A DNA stretch of 28,586 nucleotides from a virus. The first letter of the stretch is position 1. Every line of letters begins with the position of its first letter. The notes under the pieces are model-generated. The model had not been told where the DNA came from and searched no databases. It saw only the letters and a program-made list of their open reading frames with translations. The position numbers were made by a program, and so were the translations under genes. This document shows positions 6,168 through 28,586 of this stretch, piece after piece. Location: the IMG/VR virus record IMGVR_UViG_3300025326_000166, positions 1-28,586 of that record; one strand, given 5' to 3'.

Positions 6168-6801
6168 TTTGCAGATCGTGGCGGCCGCGACGGCCGACGC
6201 CGTGCGCGAGGTCTGTGCCCCGCTCCTGCGGCGCATCGCCGCCTTGGAAGCGCGGACGGTGGAGGCAGGACCGCCAGGACCGCCAGGACTTGCAGGTGAA
6301 CGAGGCCTTGACGGCCGTGATGGCCGCGACGGCCACGACGGGACGAACGGCAAGGATGGCCGCGATGGGGCAGACGGCGCGCCTGGGCCGATCGGCGAGC
6401 GAGGCGCCGATGGCCGCGACGGCCACGACGGGACGAACGGCAAGGATGGATTCGGCCTGGAGGATTTCTCCGTCGCTTACGACGGGGATCGCACGCTCTC
6501 ATTTCGCTTCATGCGTGGCGAGCTCGAGCGGTGTCAGATCGTGACCCTGCCGATGGTGATCTATCGCGGGGTGTTTGCCGAGGGGCAGACCTATGCGGTC
6601 GGCGATGCGGTGACGGCGGGCGGGTCCGTGTGGATCGCCAAGCAGGCGACCAGCGCGAAGCCGGGGCTGCCCTCAGAGGAGTCGCGTGCGTGGCAGCTCG
6701 CCGTGAAAAAGGGCCGCGATGGCCCGATGGGTCCGGCCGGGCCGCTCGGTCCGGCGGGACCGCGGGGCGAATCGGGCGCGCCCGGTCCTGTCCGCTATTA
6801 G
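6154..6801 (+). CDS. Collagen-like protein with carbohydrate-binding-like module
   Basis: A 215-residue protein. Residues 1-36 are helical and could nucleate a trimer. About 38-98 are uninterrupted Gly-X-Y triplets rich in Asp, Arg and Asn (GRDGHDGTNGKDG occurs twice). About 100-180 form a globular part with YRGVFAEGQTYAVGDAV...WIAKQATSAKPG...WQLAVKKG, the pattern of small CBM5/12-like modules seen in phage fibres. A second Gly-X-Y stretch (about 188-213) ends the chain. There is no signal peptide. It is probably a trimeric virion fibre or head/portal decoration. It sits between the portal and a glycosyltransferase cassette, which makes it a candidate glycan acceptor; that link is inference. 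Confidence 0.8.
   Translation: MTSPDLQIVAAATADAVREVCAPLLRRIAALEARTVEAGPPGPPGLAGERGLDGRDGRDGHDGTNGKDGRDGADGAPGPIGERGADGRDGHDGTNGKDGFGLEDFSVAYDGDRTLSFRFMRGELERCQIVTLPMVIYRGVFAEGQTYAVGDAVTAGGSVWIAKQATSAKPGLPSEESRAWQLAVKKGRDGPMGPAGPLGPAGPRGESGAPGPVRY
6319..6359 (+). repeat. 41-bp direct repeat, copy 1 (collagen-like gene)
   Basis: An exact 41-base segment that recurs 90 bases downstream at 6409-6449 in the same reading frame. Each copy encodes part of the Gly-X-Y region (GRDGHDGTNGKDG). Identity at silent positions indicates recent duplication, a possible route to changing fibre length. Confidence 0.9.
6409..6449 (+). repeat. 41-bp direct repeat, copy 2 (collagen-like gene)
   Basis: Second exact copy of the segment at 6319-6359. 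The 90-base offset equals ten Gly-X-Y triplets, so recombination between copies would stay in frame. Confidence 0.9.
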
Positions 6802-6812
6802 TCGGTCATGCC

Positions 6813-7424
6813 ATGCCGCAGGTCGCGCGTCTCTGGCCTGGGGAGACCGTCGTTGTTCTCGGGACCGGGCCGTCCTTGACCGTTGAGGATGTGGACTACT
6901 GTCGCACGAAAGCGCGCGTGATCGCCGTGAATGACGCCTATCACCTCGCGCCGTGGGCCGATGCGCTGTACGGCTGTGATGCGCAGTGGTGGCAATGGCA
7001 TCGTGGCGTCCCAGAGTTTACGGGGCCAAAGTGGGCGCTCGATCATTCAGCGTGGACGAAGTATCGCGCGATCTATCCGGACGTGCAGCGGCTCCGCAAC
7101 ACCGGATGGTCCGGGCTGGAGCATCTGCCGACCGGGCTCAAATCCGGCCGCAACTCCGGGTATCAGGCCATCAATCTCGCCGTGCATTACGGCGCGGCGC
7201 GGATTCTCCTTCTCGGATTCGACATGCAGGCGGCCAAAGACCGCAGTCATTTCTTCGGCGAGCACCCGAATCGCCAGCGGTCGCCGTACCCGCTCTTTCG
7301 GCACGCGTTTGATTCGCTGGTCAAACCGCTGGCTAAGATCGGCGTCGTCGTGCTGAATTGTTCTCGCTCGACGATGCTGACGGCGTTTCCGCGCGTGCCC
7401 TTGCGCGAGGCGTTGCCATGCTGA
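6813..7424 (+). CDS. DUF115/GT42-like glycan enzyme candidate
   Basis: A 203-residue protein from ATG 6813, the first in-frame ATG after the collagen-like stop. It opens with a nucleotide-binding-like turn VVVLGTGPSL (13-21). It continues with VIAVNDAYHL (36-45), ALYGCDAQWW (51-60), and a helix-strand unit SGYQAINLAVHYGAARILLLGFDM (115-138). This arrangement resembles DUF115/MptE-like proteins and the GT42 sialyltransferase fold (GxGPSL near the N-terminus; A...LGxxxIxLxGxDF later). Acceptor and donor are unknown. It is the first gene of the glycan cassette and overlaps the next by 7 bases. Other explanations include a non-catalytic sugar-nucleotide-binding protein. Confidence 0.6.
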   Translation: MPQVARLWPGETVVVLGTGPSLTVEDVDYCRTKARVIAVNDAYHLAPWADALYGCDAQWWQWHRGVPEFTGPKWALDHSAWTKYRAIYPDVQRLRNTGWSGLEHLPTGLKSGRNSGYQAINLAVHYGAARILLLGFDMQAAKDRSHFFGEHPNRQRSPYPLFRHAFDSLVKPLAKIGVVVLNCSRSTMLTAFPRVPLREALPC

Positions 7425-8131
7425 CGGTCTGCACGTTCAAGTGGTGCGCCGCGCCAGGCTACCGATCCACGTTCGGTCCGACAGCCGTCCTGGCGTTGCG
7501 GAATGCCCTACGCCGGCAGTATCCCCTGCCGCATCGGTTTGTGTGCATCACGGATGATTCGCGCGGGTTAGAGGACATCGAGACCATCCCGCTGTGGCCC
7601 GATCATGCGGCCGTGATCAGTCCTCACGGACGGCATCAGCCGAGTTGCTATCGTCGACTGAAGCTCTTCGATCCTGCGATTGAGTTGCTGCTCGGTCCGC
7701 GCTTTGTCTGTATCGATTTGGATACCGTGATTGTCGGCGATGTGACGCCCTTATTTTCTCGCGCTGAGGACTTTGTCATCTGGGGCGAGACGAATCCCAA
7801 AACCTTCTACAACGGCTCGATGTTCATGTTGACGGCCGGGGCGCGCCCGCAGGTGTGGACGGCCTTCGATCCGCAGCGGTCGCCGTCGTTGGCGAAACGC
7901 GCGGGCCGGTTCGGGTCCGATCAAGGGTGGATCAGCTATGTGCTCGGGCCGGGTCAAGCGACCTGGACGCGTGACGATGGCGTGTACAGCTTCCGCGTGC
8001 ATCTCGAGCCGAAGGGCGGCGCGCTGCCAGCGAATGCGCGCGTCGTGCATTTTCACGGCAAGGTCGATCCGTGGGACTGGCGCGGTCAGCGGCTCGCCTG
8101 GGTGCGTGAGCATTGGGGGATCGCGGCATGA
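7418..8131 (+). CDS. GT8-like glycosyltransferase (GT-A fold)
   Basis: A 237-residue protein from ATG 7418, overlapping the previous gene. GT-A features occur in order: HRFVCITDD (39-47), RRLKLFDP (79-86), the metal-binding DLD in FVCIDLDTVIVGD (100-102), NGSMFML (132-138), GSDQGWISYVLG (166-177), and VVHFHGKVDPWD (209-220), the His-x-Gly...Pro-Trp ending typical of GT8-like retaining enzymes. A metal-dependent sugar transfer from a nucleotide sugar is expected in the cytoplasm. A diverged paralogue lies at 10018-10668. Sugar and acceptor cannot be told from sequence. The stop overlaps the next start as ATGA. Confidence 0.82.
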   Translation: MLTVCTFKWCAAPGYRSTFGPTAVLALRNALRRQYPLPHRFVCITDDSRGLEDIETIPLWPDHAAVISPHGRHQPSCYRRLKLFDPAIELLLGPRFVCIDLDTVIVGDVTPLFSRAEDFVIWGETNPKTFYNGSMFMLTAGARPQVWTAFDPQRSPSLAKRAGRFGSDQGWISYVLGPGQATWTRDDGVYSFRVHLEPKGGALPANARVVHFHGKVDPWDWRGQRLAWVREHWGIAA

Positions 8132-8769
8132 GCCGGTGGGCGTGGGAGACCTTTCGGGGGAGTCCGCAGGCGCTGAAGTTCAATCGGCGGGACTTGCCGC
8201 ATCTCGTCACGATCATCGCGGCCTGTGCGGCGCACCGGGTGGCGATTCAGGCCGGCGGGCATCTCGGGATCTGGCCGAAGCGGCTTGCGGCCTCGTTCAA
8301 GACGGTCTACACCTTCGAGCCCGCGCCCACGCTGTTCGCGGCCTTGCAGGCGAATGCGCCGGAGCCGAACATCATTCGCTTGCAGGCGGCGCTGGGGGAC
8401 GTGCGGGGGCCGGTCGGCCTGTCGCAACGGCGCCGGCATGGGCGCATGGTGGGCGACCATGAGGGTCTGACCCACATCGAAGGATCGGGCGTCCTGCCGA
8501 CGCTCTGCATCGATGATCTCGCCGTGCCGGTCTGCGATCTGATTTGTCTCGACGTCGAAGGCTACGAACTCCCGGCGTTGCGCGGCGCGCATGGCACGCT
8601 GCGGCGCTGTCGGCCGGTGGTGGCGGCCGAAGTCAACGAGAATTGTCAGCACTACGGGTTCACGCCAGAGGATCTACATGGGTTCTTGCGCGATCAGGGG
8701 TACGCCTATTCCTTCCGCGCGGGATCGGATGACATTTTCCTCCCGGCGGAGCGGACCGGATGCACTTAA
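8128..8769 (+). CDS. FkbM-family methyltransferase
   Basis: A 213-residue SAM-dependent methyltransferase. ATG 8128 was chosen because it gives an ATGA overlap with the preceding stop; a TTG at 8113 is less likely. Residues 38-54 form the SAM-binding loop (VAIQAGGHLGIWPKRLA). FEPAPTLFAAL (63-73) is the conserved acidic-ribose motif of FkbM enzymes. LCIDDL (126-131) and CDLICLDVEGYELPALRGA (136-154) are the hallmark later motifs. FkbM members typically O-methylate hydroxyls, often on sugars. Among glycosyltransferases, a sugar-capping role is the natural inference. It overlaps the next gene by 10 bases. Confidence 0.85.
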   Translation: MSRWAWETFRGSPQALKFNRRDLPHLVTIIAACAAHRVAIQAGGHLGIWPKRLAASFKTVYTFEPAPTLFAALQANAPEPNIIRLQAALGDVRGPVGLSQRRRHGRMVGDHEGLTHIEGSGVLPTLCIDDLAVPVCDLICLDVEGYELPALRGAHGTLRRCRPVVAAEVNENCQHYGFTPEDLHGFLRDQGYAYSFRAGSDDIFLPAERTGCT

Positions 8770-9467
8770 TTCCCCCCGTCGAGGCGTATGAGGCGGCGTT
8801 CGCGCTCGAGCGTACGCGCCGGTATCCGCTAGTGGACGACTTCGAGGCGCGGCAGGGCTTCGCGCTCGATCGCGCCCGCCTCGAGGCGGCGGCGCGCGTG
8901 TTGGCCTGTCCGATTAAAGCGCGTCCGCCCAATTGGCAGCATGGGCGCGTGCTCTATGCGCTCACGCGACGGTATCGCCTGACGGCCGAGGGGCCGCTCT
9001 ACTGTCTCGACATCGGGACGGCGAAAGGTTTTTCGGCGCTTTGTCTGCTCTGGGCTGTGGAGGGCACGGCGAGCCGCGTGGTCTCCGTTGATGTCGTGGA
9101 CCCGGAGTCGCATACCCGGCGGAATACGATCGCGGAATGTCACGGCTTGTTGACGCTGGCCGAGACCCTCGCGCCGTGGCCCGAGAGTCAGGCCATCGAG
9201 TTCCGGCACGACACCGGCCTCGAGTGGCTGGCCCGGACGACCGATCGCGTGCATGTCGCCTTCCTTGACGGCAAGCACGACTATGCGGTCGTGCTCGGCG
9301 AAGGCCGGCTGCTCGCGGCCCGTCAACGGCCGGGCGATGTGGCCGTCTTCGATGATGCACATCTCACCGGCGTCGCCCACGCGATCGAGGAGTTGGGCCT
9401 GCACTATCGTTTCGAGGCATTCAGGCTGCTTCCCGAACGCGGCTATGTCCTGGGAGTCCGGCGCTGA
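8760..9467 (+). CDS. Class I SAM-dependent methyltransferase (Methyltransf_24 type)
   Basis: A 235-residue protein. Motif I is LDIGTAKGFSALCL (83-96), followed by VVSVDVVDP (107-115), HVAFLDGKHDYAVVLGE (165-181) and GDVAVFDDAH (192-201). The D-G-x-H-x-Y followed by DDxH pattern is characteristic of Methyltransf_24 enzymes, which often modify small hydroxylated compounds or sugars. The N-terminal 75 residues are helical and less recognisable. It overlaps FkbM upstream by 10 bases, and its stop shares TGATG with the next gene. The substrate is unknown; cassette context points to a glycan or its precursor. Confidence 0.82.
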   Translation: MHLIPPVEAYEAAFALERTRRYPLVDDFEARQGFALDRARLEAAARVLACPIKARPPNWQHGRVLYALTRRYRLTAEGPLYCLDIGTAKGFSALCLLWAVEGTASRVVSVDVVDPESHTRRNTIAECHGLLTLAETLAPWPESQAIEFRHDTGLEWLARTTDRVHVAFLDGKHDYAVVLGEGRLLAARQRPGDVAVFDDAHLTGVAHAIEELGLHYRFEAFRLLPERGYVLGVRR

Positions 9468-10024
9468 TGGGCATTCTGAAAGAGCCGGCGGTCTTTATTG
9501 AGCAGTTGCATCTCCCGCATGGATTTTCCGTCTGTGAGTTAGGCGATCAATGGGTGACGTGGACCGATCCGCACGAACTCGCCGAGGCGTGGTATCGCCG
9601 GCTCGGCTGCGCGCGGTATTGCTCGATCGATGGGAATGGGCGCGGCACGATCATGGCCGACCTGAATCTTCCCCTCGTCCGGCCGCGGAAACCATTCGAT
9701 CTCGTGACGGATTTCGGTACGGGCGAACACGTCTTTGACCAGGCGCAAGTGTGGCGGACGCTGCACTCCCTCACCAGACCCGGCGGGTATCTCGCGTTCG
9801 ACCGGCCCGTGCAAGGCTACCGCCAGCACTGCTACTACCTCACCGATGAATGTCTCTTTCGCGATCTGGCCGCGGCGAATGCGTACGACATCGTCCAGCT
9901 TGCGCGGCAGATCACCCCACGCGGCGAATTGATTCGCGGCATCTTTCGTCGGCCGAAGGATCGCGCGGCGTTTCGGGTCCCGCAGCAGGGCCGGTATCAC
10001 AAGTCCCTGGTGATTCCATGTTGA
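9467..10024 (+). CDS. Methyltransferase-like protein (Methyltransf_11-like, divergent)
   Basis: A 185-residue protein with a class I methyltransferase outline. SVCELGDQWVTW (21-32) replaces the usual E/D-x-G-x-G-x-G loop with a degenerate E-L-G-D-Q. RYCSIDGNGRG (50-60) would be the ribose-binding acid strand. FDLVTDFGTGEHVFDQ (77-92) and LTRPGGYLAFDRP (102-114) match the later motifs. The same FGTxEHV-DQ-(L)TxPGG pattern occurs in methyltransferases near glycan genes. The weak glycine loop makes activity uncertain. It overlaps the next start by 7 bases. Confidence 0.65.
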   Translation: MGILKEPAVFIEQLHLPHGFSVCELGDQWVTWTDPHELAEAWYRRLGCARYCSIDGNGRGTIMADLNLPLVRPRKPFDLVTDFGTGEHVFDQAQVWRTLHSLTRPGGYLAFDRPVQGYRQHCYYLTDECLFRDLAAANAYDIVQLARQITPRGELIRGIFRRPKDRAAFRVPQQGRYHKSLVIPC

Positions 10025-10668
10025 CGGTCGTCTGTGTGTGGGTCCGCGCGAATGTGCCGTACGGCGCGGAGTATGTCGCCCGCTTGCGCGCGAGTGTGGC
10101 GCGGCATCTCGCCCGCCCGCATCGGTTCGTCTGCCTCACCGATCACCCGTTGCAGGTGCCAGCGGATGTCGCAGCGATCTGGATTCCGTCGCCGAAGCCA
10201 CTGCCGGGCTGGTGGGCGAAATTGCGCCTGTTCGATCCGGCGGTGGGGCTCGGCGGGCGGGTGCTCTATCTCGATCTCGATTCAATCATCGTGCAGGCGC
10301 TCGACCCGATTGTGGAGTTTCCGTCGGCCTTTGCGCTCGTGCCGCCGGGTGGGGCCTTCCGACCGGCGAACGGCCAGCAGACCGTGCGGCGGTACAACTC
10401 CTCGGTCATGGTGTTCGATGGCGGCACGTTGCCGCATCTCTGGACGCAATTCACGCCGGCCATTGCGGCGCGGCTCTGGGGCGATCAGGACGCCATCGGA
10501 GAATGGCAGCCGACGGCCGACACGATGCCTGCGGCGTGGTTTCCTCGGATCTCCGAGATCGGGGCCGCTGGCCAGATCCCCGCCGAGGCCCGCGTGATCC
10601 TCGCGAAGACGCCCAAGCCGGCTGACGCGGTGGCCCGCTGGCCCTGGGTGGCGGCGCACTGGGGCTGA
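10018..10668 (+). CDS. GT8-like glycosyltransferase paralogue, C-terminal His motif lost
   Basis: A 216-residue paralogue of the protein at 7418-8131. Shared elements are HRFVCLTDHP, AKLRLFDPAVG (67-77), the DLD in VLYLDLDSIIV (86-88), YNSSVMVFD (126-134) and GDQDAIGEW (155-163). Where the first copy has VVHFHGKVDPWD, this one has VILAKTPKPADA, so the His-x-Gly that helps hold the metal in GT8 enzymes is missing. It may use a different site geometry, be inactive, or act with its paralogue. ATG 10018 overlaps the previous stop. One base separates it from the next gene. Confidence 0.78.
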   Translation: MLTVVCVWVRANVPYGAEYVARLRASVARHLARPHRFVCLTDHPLQVPADVAAIWIPSPKPLPGWWAKLRLFDPAVGLGGRVLYLDLDSIIVQALDPIVEFPSAFALVPPGGAFRPANGQQTVRRYNSSVMVFDGGTLPHLWTQFTPAIAARLWGDQDAIGEWQPTADTMPAAWFPRISEIGAAGQIPAEARVILAKTPKPADAVARWPWVAAHWG

Positions 10669-10669
10669 G

Positions 10670-11407
10670 ATGGCTCTCTGGTGTCGCGATCTGCCGTCGG
10701 TCCAGATCCCGCCGAGCGCCACGCCCAAGCCCCTCACGCTCGTCTTGCCGTATTACGAGAATCCGACCTTCCTTGAGACTCAGTGTCAGCTCTGGCGCGG
10801 GTATCCGCGGGATCTCACGGCGGGGCTGACCGTCATCGTCGTGGATGACGGATCGCCCGTGCCGTGCGTCCGTCCGCGCGACGTGCCGTGTGCGCTCCGG
10901 CTCTTTCGGATCGGCGTGGACGTGCGGTGGAACTGGTTGGCGGCGCGCAATCTCGGCGCGCATCACGCAGAGGCGGGATGGTTGCTCCTCACCGATATGG
11001 ATCACCTCATGCCGACTGACACGCTCCGCGCGGTGATGTGGGGGCAGCACGATCCTCGCGTGGTCTATGCGTTCGCGCGGCGTGAGCACACCGGGCAGAC
11101 CATCGCGCCGCATTCGGCCAGCTTTCTCCTCACCCGCGATCTGTTCTGGCGTGTGGGCGGTTATGACGAGGCGCTCTCGGGCTACTACGGGACCGATGGC
11201 GAGTTCCGGCGACGGCTGGCGCAGCAGGCCCCGATCCATCTCCTACCTCATGTGCTCGTGCGACATGAGTTCGTCGGGGACAGTTCCACCACGCGGTACC
11301 GGCGCAAACAACCTGTAGATGCCGCCGTTAAGCGCCTCGTCGCGCGACGTCCGAAGACGTGGCGCCCGCGCGTCTTGTCGTTCCCCTACACCGAGGTGCT
11401 GACGTGA
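10670..11407 (+). CDS. GT2-type glycosyltransferase
   Basis: A 245-residue GT-A enzyme. LTLVLPYYENP (22-32) and VIVVDDGSP (55-63) form the nucleotide-binding start of GT2 proteins. NWLAARNLGA (88-97) is the conserved R-N-x-G helix. WLLLTDMDHLMP (104-115) holds the metal-binding DMD. FWRVGGYDEALSGYYGTDGEFRRRL (159-183) includes the catalytic-base region around TDGEF. There is no membrane segment, so transfer would occur in the cytoplasm. It ends the glycan cassette and overlaps the head-tail connector start as GTGA (11404-11407), which couples cassette and virion gene expression. Confidence 0.88.
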   Translation: MALWCRDLPSVQIPPSATPKPLTLVLPYYENPTFLETQCQLWRGYPRDLTAGLTVIVVDDGSPVPCVRPRDVPCALRLFRIGVDVRWNWLAARNLGAHHAEAGWLLLTDMDHLMPTDTLRAVMWGQHDPRVVYAFARREHTGQTIAPHSASFLLTRDLFWRVGGYDEALSGYYGTDGEFRRRLAQQAPIHLLPHVLVRHEFVGDSSTTRYRRKQPVDAAVKRLVARRPKTWRPRVLSFPYTEVLT

Positions 11408-19662: not shown

Positions 19663-20121
19663 ATGACGATCATGCGGCCCGTAGCGATTGTCGCGCGTGA
19701 CAGTAAGCGGCTCGAATCGATCACGCCGCCGCTCCGCGCGATCGTGACGAAGATCCTTACTGCGATGGAGGGACTCGGGTATCCCATGACGGTCACGGCG
19801 GGCGTGCGCACGGTCGAAGAACAGGTGGCGCTCTTTGCCAAAGGCCGGACGGCGCCCGGATCGGTCGTCACAAATGCTGACGGCGTGGCGAAGAAGTCCA
19901 ACCATCAGGCGAAAGCGGACGGCTTCGGCTGGGCCGTCGATTGCGCGTTTCTGGTGGACGGGCCGGATCGGGATGGTGAGCTCGAGACGCCGTCGTGGGA
20001 TGAGGCGCATCCGTGGACGCTCTACGGCACGATGGCCGAAACGCTTGGCGCGGGCAGGCTCGTGTGGGGGGGCCGCTGGCCGCATCTCCGAGACCTGCCG
20101 CATGTGGAGTGGAAAGGATGA
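19663..20121 (+). CDS. Endolysin, M15-type peptidoglycan peptidase
   Basis: A 152-residue peptidase of the VanY/CwlK-like M15 family, expected to cut peptide cross-links in the cell wall at lysis. GVRTVEEQVALFAKGRTAPG (47-66) is the conserved substrate-side segment. The zinc ligands are His81 (SNHQ), Asp93 (GWAVDCAF) and His147 (LPHVEW), with Glu149 as likely catalytic acid. LVWGGRWPHLRDLPHVEW matches the family's GGxW...D..H.E ending. It has no signal peptide, so it needs a holin. Length is typical for a single-domain phage enzyme. The stop overlaps the next start as ATGA. Confidence 0.92.
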   Translation: MTIMRPVAIVARDSKRLESITPPLRAIVTKILTAMEGLGYPMTVTAGVRTVEEQVALFAKGRTAPGSVVTNADGVAKKSNHQAKADGFGWAVDCAFLVDGPDRDGELETPSWDEAHPWTLYGTMAETLGAGRLVWGGRWPHLRDLPHVEWKG

Positions 20122-20375
20122 AGCCACGGGCCGGCGATGTTATCGTGGATAGCACGGGCGCGCACGTAGAAGTCGTGTCGGTCATCGGCGCACACGAGTT
20201 TCTCGCTGGACTGTCCGAGCAACAGCGGAGCCTGCATGCGCCGACATTGCTCCGCGATTCGAGCGCCGCGGCCTGTTGCGCCCAGGGCGCCACGACCTCC
20301 GGCCGGGAGCGACGGAACACGGACCGCGCGCAGCATCGTGACCGGCGGTATGTCTGCGCGATGAGAGGGGAATGA
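20118..20375 (+). CDS. Hypothetical protein in lysis region
   Basis: An 85-residue protein whose ATG 20118 overlaps the endolysin stop. The first 45 residues (RAGDVIVDSTGAHVEVVSVI then GAHEFLAGLSEQQRSLHAPT) look like a small beta-rich fold. The rest is Arg-rich, with AACCAQG, and probably disordered. No membrane segment or known domain was recognised. One base separates its stop from the holin-like gene. No function can be assigned. Confidence 0.6.
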   Translation: MKPRAGDVIVDSTGAHVEVVSVIGAHEFLAGLSEQQRSLHAPTLLRDSSAAACCAQGATTSGRERRNTDRAQHRDRRYVCAMRGE

Positions 20376-20376
20376 G

Positions 20377-20802
20377 ATGAAACGCTGGTGGATCTTCATG
20401 GTGATCGTTTTCGTCGCGGCATGGGGCGTGCCGATGCTGGCGCAGGCTGCGGCCGCGGCGGTCGATACACCGTTGGAACCTGGGCAAGCAAATGAGTCCG
20501 TGGTCTCCTTCGTCTGGGCCTACGCCTCGGCGGCCTTCCTTCAATGGTGGAAGCGATCGAAGTTTGGCGGGATGAGCGAGAATGCGCTCCGGCATGTCAA
20601 GACGGCCATTGCCTTCGCGATGGCGTTCGCGGGCGCGCTCGGCGTGCATTCCTCGTTTGATGCCGCGCAGGGGACGCTGACCATTACCGGCTTACTCTGG
20701 CCGGGCGTGTGGACGGCCGTGGGTGATACCATCCGTCAGTTCGGGTTTCAGCAGTTCGCGTATCGAACGGCGATTGAACCGCGAGCTACGACGGAGACGT
20801 AA
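20377..20802 (+). CDS. Holin-like multi-span membrane protein
   Basis: A 141-residue protein with GAGAGGGG upstream of ATG 20377. It has an N-terminal hydrophobic segment (about 4-24, IFMVIVFVAAWGVPMLAQ-like) that could be a signal anchor. Further hydrophobic stretches lie at about 42-58 (VVSFVWAYASAAFLQW), 75-92 (AIAFAMAFAGALGV) and 98-118. Short polar loops and a charged C-terminus fit a holin that would release the endolysin. No known holin family is clear by eye. Position between endolysin and lipoprotein supports a lysis role. Confidence 0.6.
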   Translation: MKRWWIFMVIVFVAAWGVPMLAQAAAAAVDTPLEPGQANESVVSFVWAYASAAFLQWWKRSKFGGMSENALRHVKTAIAFAMAFAGALGVHSSFDAAQGTLTITGLLWPGVWTAVGDTIRQFGFQQFAYRTAIEPRATTET

Positions 20803-26470: not shown

Positions 26471-26871
26471 TGGCCACAGATCAACAGATCGGCGGGACGG
26501 ACACGGATCGGCTTTTTCTCGATACCGATTTCACGCGCGATTTTCATGTCCTCGACCTCGACACGGACGCGAGCGGCGCGACCGCCAAAGACATCGCCGG
26601 CTGGGCGATCACGCTCGATGCGCGCAAGACCGATGCGAGTAGCACGGTGCTGAAATCGTGGACACTGTCGATCATCGGATCGTTCAATAGCGTCGCGGCC
26701 ACGAATACGCAGCGGGCACGGTGGACCGCCGCCGATACCGATCTGACGATCGCCGCGTTTGGGAAATCAGGCGGGCGCTATCGGTACTCGCTCAAGCGCA
26801 CGGACGCAGGCCAGGAACTCATTCTCCAGTACGGGGACATCGTGATCGAGCGCGCGACGCAAGCGGCCTAG
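26470..26871 (+). CDS. Hypothetical beta protein, tail-associated by context
   Basis: A 133-residue protein from ATG 26470, sharing one base with the repeat-protein stop. TDTDRLFLDTDFTRDFHVLD followed by AKDIAGWAITLDARKTDASS and YRYSLKRTDAGQELILQYGD fit a small Ig-like or BppU-N-like beta sandwich, seen at the start of some baseplate and fibre proteins. The stop codon lies in the first copy of a 15-bp direct repeat. Its 3' end overlaps a - strand ORF by about 105 bases. It is probably the last gene of the late + strand block. Confidence 0.65.
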   Translation: MATDQQIGGTDTDRLFLDTDFTRDFHVLDLDTDASGATAKDIAGWAITLDARKTDASSTVLKSWTLSIIGSFNSVAATNTQRARWTAADTDLTIAAFGKSGGRYRYSLKRTDAGQELILQYGDIVIERATQAA

Positions 26872-26967
26872 CGGAATAGGCGGCGAAGTAGCATAACCCT
26901 TGTGGTTGTGGTATTCCCATCTTGGTCCTGACCATCCCTGCGTGCCCCCGCACTTCGGGCACATCAT
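26767..26967 (-). CDS. Small CPKCGG zinc-ribbon-like ORF, possibly truncated
   Basis: A 66-residue - strand ORF beginning MMCPKCGGTQGWSGPRWEYH. Its start overlaps the preceding - strand stop as ATGA (26967-26964), supporting translation. CPKCGG with GPRWEY resembles small phage zinc-ribbon proteins, which normally have a second CxxC. Here the second pair is absent: after about 30 residues the frame runs through a 15-bp direct repeat (26860-26874) into the antisense of the convergent gene. The distal part is probably not native. One Cys (in LACVRAL) lies in that antisense part. It may be a truncated or degenerate gene. Confidence 0.45.
   Translation of the reverse strand: MMCPKCGGTQGWSGPRWEYHNHKGYATSPPIPLGRLRRALDHDVPVLENEFLACVRALERVPIAPA
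26860..26874 (+). repeat. 15-bp direct repeat, left copy
   Basis: CAAGCGGCCTAGCGG is identical to 27168-27182. This copy includes the last codons and TAG stop of the + strand gene ending at 26871. Together the copies bracket the - strand gene pair. Confidence 0.85.
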
Positions 26968-27152
26968 GACGCCTTCGCCTCGCGCGCTTTGCGTCGACGC
27001 CGCGCATTGGCGCCGGCCCGCCCGATGGCGGACAGCTCGGCGGGCGTGAGGCGCTGCGCTCGCGCGAGCCCCCCACGACGGCCCAGCGCGACTGCGGCCG
27101 GATCTTTCTCTGGCGTGGGCGGGAGCGCGAGGGGCGCCGCGGGCGGAGCCAT
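26964..27152 (-). CDS. Small basic - strand protein (RGG-LTPAE-AR type)
   Basis: A 62-residue protein. Residues 20-54 (AVALGRRGGLARAQRLTPAE then LSAIGRAGANARRRR) resemble widespread small basic proteins with the pattern G-R-x-GG-x-AR-x(2)-LTPE-x-R-x-x-IA-x-x-A-x-x-ARW, of unknown function and probably nucleic-acid-binding. The N-terminus is Pro/Ala-rich. A TAG lies 12 bases upstream in frame, so ATG 27152 is the earliest start; no clear ribosome site precedes it. Its stop overlaps the next - strand ORF (ATGA). It is opposite to all nearby genes, consistent with a small acquired unit. Confidence 0.6.
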   Translation of the reverse strand: MAPPAAPLALPPTPEKDPAAVALGRRGGLARAQRLTPAELSAIGRAGANARRRRKAREAKAS

Positions 27153-27167
27153 ACGGGGAGTCTAGCA

Positions 27168-27182
27168 CAAGCGGCCTAGCGG
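27168..27182 (+). repeat. 15-bp direct repeat, right copy
   Basis: Second exact copy of CAAGCGGCCTAGCGG, 308 bases from the left copy. It lies in the noncoding stretch upstream of the - strand pair. Copy spacing and position suggest target duplication or recombination at insertion of the pair. Confidence 0.85.
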
Positions 27183-27248
27183 TAGCTATTCGACTTTCCT
27201 TCGCTTTCGCTGTCTCTTCAAAAATCGTATAGGACATGTCGATTTCCC

Positions 27249-27277
27249 TTGACTGGCATCCTAGCGCTAAGTATCAT
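27249..27277 (+). promoter_or_regulatory. Near-consensus sigma70 promoter with internal palindrome
   Basis: TTGACT (27249-27254) and TATCAT (27272-27277) each differ from the consensus -35 and -10 at one base, with the optimal 17-base spacer. Transcription would begin near 27284, about 20 bases before ATG 27305. The spacer holds the perfect palindrome TAGCGCTA (27262-27269), placed where a repressor would block polymerase. A close relative, CCTAGCGGTAGC, occurs at 27175-27186. This is the clearest promoter in the window. Confidence 0.65.
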
Positions 27278-27709: not shown

Positions 27710-28054
27710 ATGCCGCGCTGCCTTATCTGCCGTGAGCCATTCTTTGCGCGCTCTTGGTCCGCGCCGGCCGAGTCCTGCGACTGCGGGCTCGAGCTCATGC
27801 ACTCTGACGACGCCCAGTTCGTCGCCGGACTGCGCGCCCGCTGGCAGAATGATCGGCAGTGGTGGCCAGAGGATCTCGCCCTGCTCGAGCCGCTGATGAT
27901 GACCTACGGCGAGCTCGAGGACGTGCAGGCCGTGATTCGCACGCTCCGGCCCGCCGCCGAACCCCGCTGGAGTCTGACGCCGCACCGTGTAGGCAAGGGG
28001 AACTGGATCATTCGCACGGAGTGGCGACCTTCACTGGAGACTGAGGATGTGTAA
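27710..28054 (+). CDS. Small CxxC/CxC protein, possible zinc binding
   Basis: A 114-residue protein starting three bases after the previous stop. Cys4, Cys7, Cys23 and Cys25 (CLIC ... CDCG) could hold one zinc ion. The rest is acidic to neutral and Trp-rich (ARWQNDRQWWPEDLALLEPL, GNWIIRTEW). No family was recognised. Small zinc proteins of this type are common in phage early regions. The 3' end overlaps the next gene by 8 bases (ATGTGTAA). Confidence 0.65.
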   Translation: MPRCLICREPFFARSWSAPAESCDCGLELMHSDDAQFVAGLRARWQNDRQWWPEDLALLEPLMMTYGELEDVQAVIRTLRPAAEPRWSLTPHRVGKGNWIIRTEWRPSLETEDV

Positions 28055-28586
28055 CTTTTTTTCGGCGCTCGTGCTCCGTAACGGCGACGTCTTGCATCAC
28101 CCGATGCTGGACTCGCACAGCGATCTGGTGACGTATTTCAAACTGCCCGACGAGACCGCACATCACCAGCACTTCGCGAAGATCGAGCTCGTGCCCGTCG
28201 ATTGGCTGGATGCCGCCACGTGGCGATTCCAGCTCGATGCCGAGACGGCCCCTGGCTGGTGGACCGAGGTCGCACAGGCCGCCGAGGAAGCGTGCCGCGC
28301 GATTGTCGCCAAGATGATGCTCCGGTCCGGCGAGCATCGATTGGTTGTGGATGGCTGCTGGATCGTGGGCGGGACGGCCATCGTGCGCGATGTCCGTGCC
28401 GGCCGTATCGTCCAGGTGCGGGACAGTGCTCAGATTCACGACGTGCGGGGCAGTGCTCAGATTCACGACGTGGGGGGCAGTGCTCAGATTCGCGGCGTGG
28501 GGGACAGTGCTCAGATTCACGGCGTGGGGGGCAGTGCTCAGATTCACGACGTGTGGGACAGTGCTCAGATTCACGACGTGCGGGGC
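28047..28586 (+). CDS. Partial phage protein with C-terminal nonapeptide beta repeats
   Basis: An ORF from ATG 28047 (GGAG at 28036-28039) open to the window edge, at least 180 codons. The N-terminal 120 residues are globular (CNFFSALVLRNGDVLHHPML, then HHQHFAKIELVPVDWLDAAT and EHRLVVDGCWIVGGTAIVRD). They are followed by a nine-residue repeat V-(R/G/W)-(D/G)-S-A-Q-I-(H/R)-(D/G), present in six full copies. The alternating small and hydrophobic residues fit a beta-helix/solenoid like those of other phage proteins with this N-terminus. The role is unknown. The start of the repeat region (VVDGCWIVGGTAIVRDVRAG) already has a similar cadence, so the solenoid may begin before the DNA-level repeat. 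Confidence 0.75.
   Translation, partial: MCNFFSALVLRNGDVLHHPMLDSHSDLVTYFKLPDETAHHQHFAKIELVPVDWLDAATWRFQLDAETAPGWWTEVAQAAEEACRAIVAKMMLRSGEHRLVVDGCWIVGGTAIVRDVRAGRIVQVRDSAQIHDVRGSAQIHDVGGSAQIRGVGDSAQIHGVGGSAQIHDVWDSAQIHDVRG
28416..28586 (+). repeat. 27-bp tandem repeat array, cut by the window edge
   Basis: Six full copies (28416-28442, 28443-28469, 28470-28496, 28497-28523, 28524-28550, 28551-28577) and 9 bases of a seventh. The 14-base core CAGTGCTCAGATTC is invariant. Only four positions vary (unit positions 4, 8, 23 and 26), and each difference changes the amino acid. It is head-to-tail, in frame, and has no unique spacers, so it is not a CRISPR array. Confidence 0.95.

Follow-up and report, generated by a model that had tools for sequence, protein, structure and literature searches.

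A moron-like two-gene segment between 15-bp direct repeats in a phage genome, possibly acquired by illegitimate recombination

The window analysed in this study spans the whole of a 28,586-base viral record from an uncultured phage (IMG/VR record IMGVR_UViG_3300025326_000166). Beyond the last gene of its late/tail module, two minus-strand ORFs lie among plus-strand neighbours, bracketed by two exact copies of a 15-bp direct repeat, CAAGCGGCCTAGCGG (Table 1). The first ORF encodes a small basic protein and the second a peptide starting with a CPKCGG motif, and the two share an ATGA stop/start overlap. The product of the convergent tail-module gene, whose TAG stop is contained in the left repeat copy, has a weak PHROG match of unknown function (phrog_1084, E 0.0097). 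This anatomy agrees with the first-pass annotation, which had described two coupled genes opposed to everything nearby, exact repeats at these coordinates and a convergent stop inside the left copy. Its statement that no transposase or inverted-repeat ends are visible was also borne out, as no inverted repeats were found when the segment ends were compared, and no transposase or recombinase was seen among the ORFs inspected by eye.

Table 1. Features at the segment and its edges (positions in the window).
Feature	Position	Strand	Remarks
Last gene of late/tail module, 133 aa	26470..26871	+	Convergent with the segment; TAG stop inside left repeat
CPKCGG ORF, 66 aa (MMCPKCGG...), probable truncated gene	26767..26967	-	First knuckle only
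Left copy of 15-bp direct repeat	26860..26874	+	Exact match
Small basic protein, 62 aa, AVALGRRGG family	26964..27152	-	Family match; ATGA overlap with CPKCGG ORF
Right copy of 15-bp direct repeat	27168..27182	+	Edge of AT-richer intergenic region upstream of small gene
Sigma-70-like promoter TTGACT-17-TATCAT	27249..27277	+	Faces next plus-strand genes (27302 onward)

A simple scan revealed no terminator and no minus-strand sigma-70-like promoter, although the host may use other promoter types, and the small gene has no recognisable Shine-Dalgarno site. The plus-strand promoter to the right of the segment matches 10 of the 12 consensus positions and was the only one found, against a mean of 0.2 in shuffled sequence. 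No Rfam match or unusual RNA fold was detected at either segment edge. The GC content of the segment (0.70) exceeds that of the window (0.65), the left gene (0.62) and the right intergenic stretch (0.47), a contrast weakened by the short length of the segment.

The small basic protein is a genuine gene product by its sequence relatives, which form an uncurated family with the signature K[ND]PxAVALGRRGG. The family is present in both phages and bacteria, with members in 16–20 IMG/VR contigs, at four genome-collection loci and in 22 of the 149 genomes sampled from one bacterial phylum. The window protein has the invariant K..AVALGRRGG.A core and, like the other members, a basic C-terminal helix. 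It differs from them in its longer Pro/Ala-rich N-terminus and lacks the C-terminal ARW that is common in the family. The family is widespread yet uncurated: no Pfam, PHROGs, NCBIfam or PADLOC model scored above threshold, and no relative was found among solved structures. In the phage collection, too, neither the region nor any of the individual proteins gave a match at the DNA or protein level; the small protein may have been masked there by low-complexity filtering. A model of its fold, predicted with moderate confidence (mean pLDDT 80.8, pTM 0.38), shows two helices. Judging from its strong basic character, the protein is probably a nucleic-acid binder. The genes directly downstream of AVALGRRGG genes vary: one encodes an HNH endonuclease, while those in other contigs include genes for proteins of 106 aa and 299 aa.

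Of the CPKCGG ORF, only about the first 20 residues are zinc-ribbon-like; it keeps CPKCGGTQGWSGPR, with CPKC as its sole knuckle, and a second Cys-x2-Cys knuckle is absent from the window in all three frames. As had been noticed before, the second half of the ORF is antisense sequence, since the open frame crosses the left repeat and then runs opposite to the tail-module gene. The frame could be extended upstream as far as a start at 27237, but this longer version was not adopted, because it would overlap the conserved small gene.

Protein searches with the zinc-ribbon ORF gave no match, and complete zinc ribbons were therefore located in IMG/VR by the DNA pattern of the first knuckle. Among the complete relatives, which lie in other viral contigs, L125 and L137 combine CPKCG..GW.GP with a second knuckle of the form CxTCGY; in L162 the second knuckle reads CATCRY. 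These small phage zinc ribbons, of the form CPKCG-x4-W-x-GP, have the first knuckle and the GWSGPR block in common with the window ORF, a homology judged from a short motif that the search pattern itself had in part prescribed. All three possess the second knuckle, whereas the window ORF is without it. An apparent alignment with L125 beyond the repeat was judged forced, as the ORF there lies opposite the tail gene. Because the second knuckle of complete zinc ribbons is missing, the simplest reading is that the ORF is probably a zinc-ribbon gene truncated at its 3' end. The first-pass annotation had placed such a truncation at the junction; the comparison with full-length relatives strengthens the truncation itself, but would place the break no more exactly than somewhere from the first knuckle to the left repeat.

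How unusual is the repeat? Commonness in the genome had been named as a point against an insertion, but the record contains only these two exact copies of the 15-mer, the closest other match differing at 2 positions. Chance was modelled by dinucleotide-preserving shuffles of the whole window and of the local 2 kb. The shuffles led us to expect 1.94 exact direct repeats of at least 15 bp per window, but only 0.09 such pairs at most 400 bp apart; in the local 2 kb shuffles, a fraction of 0.006 (0.6%) contained an exact pair within that distance. The real window has three further exact 15-mers outside repetitive genes, all widely dispersed. In view of these expectations and of the other 15-mers, the repeat is suggestive, not compelling: it is only moderately unusual, and chance could account for it. 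It is noteworthy only for its close spacing and its position at the edges of the gene pair, and this judgement is partly post hoc.

A related phage offers a view of the small gene in another setting. This phage (G006, the contig behind L008; 52,971 bases) shares terminase, coat, portal and tape-measure homologues with the window, with a portal identity of 55–56%. Its AVALGRRGG homologue also lies on the minus strand, but at a different site, flanked by plus-strand genes, on one side a collagen-like gene and on the other a gene at 19994-20653, and it is coupled to an HNH endonuclease rather than to a zinc ribbon. No bounding repeat was found around this cassette. The different site and partner in G006 fit accessory traffic of the small gene, but do not show a shared unit. 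In a related phage (L061, 18856-19921), the plus-strand structural module contains a minus-strand cassette comprising a 69-aa ORF, an AVALGRRGG protein and an HNH endonuclease. It had been proposed to look for the pair at other sites in other phages; a homologue of the small protein indeed occurs elsewhere, while the exact pair with the CPKCGG ORF was not found in the AVALGRRGG neighbourhoods checked.

A relative with an empty site was not found in the collections searched, and searches with the left gene and a right-hand gene yielded no relatives. The exact 15-mer occurs in 19 IMG/VR contigs, none of which (0/19) has homologous flanks. Contigs of the same phage group that are near-identical to the window (L019, L020/L064) or ~70% identical (L021, L022) end before 13.6 kb, and synteny with G006, the one larger relative, is lost at the segment. 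Since no empty-site relative was found, we infer the insertion; its recombination route and the DNA binding of the small protein are inferences as well. The anatomy, the protein family, the missing second knuckle and the other site and partner in G006 are direct observations.

Our preferred explanation, to which we give about even odds (a probability of roughly 0.5), is that a moron-like accessory segment, its small gene intact and its other gene truncated, was acquired by illegitimate recombination. The segment fills the interval from the end of the tail module to the promoter of the next plus-strand operon. The intact gene encodes the small basic, two-helix AVALGRRGG-family protein, and the coupled zinc-ribbon gene would have lost its 3' end either at acquisition or by a later deletion. 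The 15-bp identity may represent the homology used for the crossover, which would leave one repeat copy on each side and the stop of the tail gene intact. Before insertion, the site would then have run from the tail-gene stop through a single repeat copy into TAGCTATTCG. The more specific claim that the repeats record the very crossover that brought a two-gene moron into this phage, and hence are a rare direct trace of acquisition by very short homology, seems doubtful.

Phage morons are accessory genes that have entered between two genes lying side by side in relatives (PMC4378225). How phages pick up single accessory genes has been called mysterious, and their flanks have not been seen to share a recombination target (PMC4378225). 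Like a moron, the segment is small, differs in base composition, lies between two modules on the opposite strand and has a family member elsewhere in a related phage. Unlike a moron, it shows no terminator and no clear promoter of its own. No relative found covers the site. Exact flanking direct repeats, as seen here, are not part of the moron definition. Because its own promoter and terminator were not found, we call the segment moron-like rather than a moron. Similarly, the CPKCGG ORF falls short of a zinc ribbon, which has two Cys-x2-Cys knuckles, and the segment has neither the terminal inverted repeats nor the transposase of an insertion sequence, MITE or mobile cassette. The earlier description of a small inserted and possibly mobile moron is partly supported, namely for a moron-like minus-strand unit with a member of a genuine protein family, a homologue elsewhere in a related phage and a zinc ribbon short of its second knuckle. 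An inserted or mobile unit bounded by its own repeats finds no such support: no empty-site relative was found in the collections searched, the exact pair was not found elsewhere, the related cassette is repeat-less and chance could produce the repeat.

A serious rival, which we consider quite possible if somewhat improbable, is that the two genes have long resided in this phage lineage, as a regular feature between its late and early modules. In that case, the zinc-ribbon ORF would have decayed or be a short one-knuckle peptide, and the 15-mer would be a coincidence in GC-rich DNA. The three other dispersed 15-mers, where 1.94 are expected, and the related phage's cassette without bounding repeats point in this direction. 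Against this, such close spacing with a copy at either edge of the pair is unusual (0.6% in the local shuffles), and the loss of synteny with the one larger relative leaves residency likewise unsupported.

Alternatively, the segment might be a discrete mobile or excisable unit of 308 bp whose terminal 15-bp repeats serve as recombination sites, for instance with a circular intermediate or a recombinase acting in trans. This would be consistent with exact repeats at both edges, and joining the flanks via one copy would keep the tail-gene stop and the downstream promoter region intact. Yet, there is no recombinase, no inverted repeat and no second copy of the unit, the exact 15-mer was not found in a homologous context in IMG/VR, and a precise unit would not be expected to carry a truncated partner gene. 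We found no evidence for a self-mobile element, and consider it very unlikely. It is also very unlikely that the segment is the remnant of a larger replacement, in which an internal deletion, possibly between short repeats, spared only the small gene and part of a zinc-ribbon gene from a bigger minus-strand accessory cluster: the half zinc ribbon and the multi-gene minus-strand accessory cluster of a related phage would agree with it, but the segment holds no further remnants and, without relatives, would look the same as a truncating insertion.

The locus looks like ordinary accessory-gene acquisition by a phage. An exact short repeat at each edge together with a broken gene at one edge would make it a useful case if empty-site relatives are found.

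Several other features were observed in the window. At 6313-6449, a collagen-like repeat gene features a tandem unit of 45 bp as well as an exact repeat of 41 bp; G006 has a longer collagen-like gene adjoining its portal. Glycosyltransferase- and methyltransferase-like genes, recognised by reading translations only, are located between the portal and head-tail genes (7358-11407), inside the structural module. At the other end, an ORF starting at 28047 encodes repeated DSAQIHDV-type peptides and runs off the contig end; it contains a 27-bp tandem array at 28416-28586 (6.3 copies, 91% matches).
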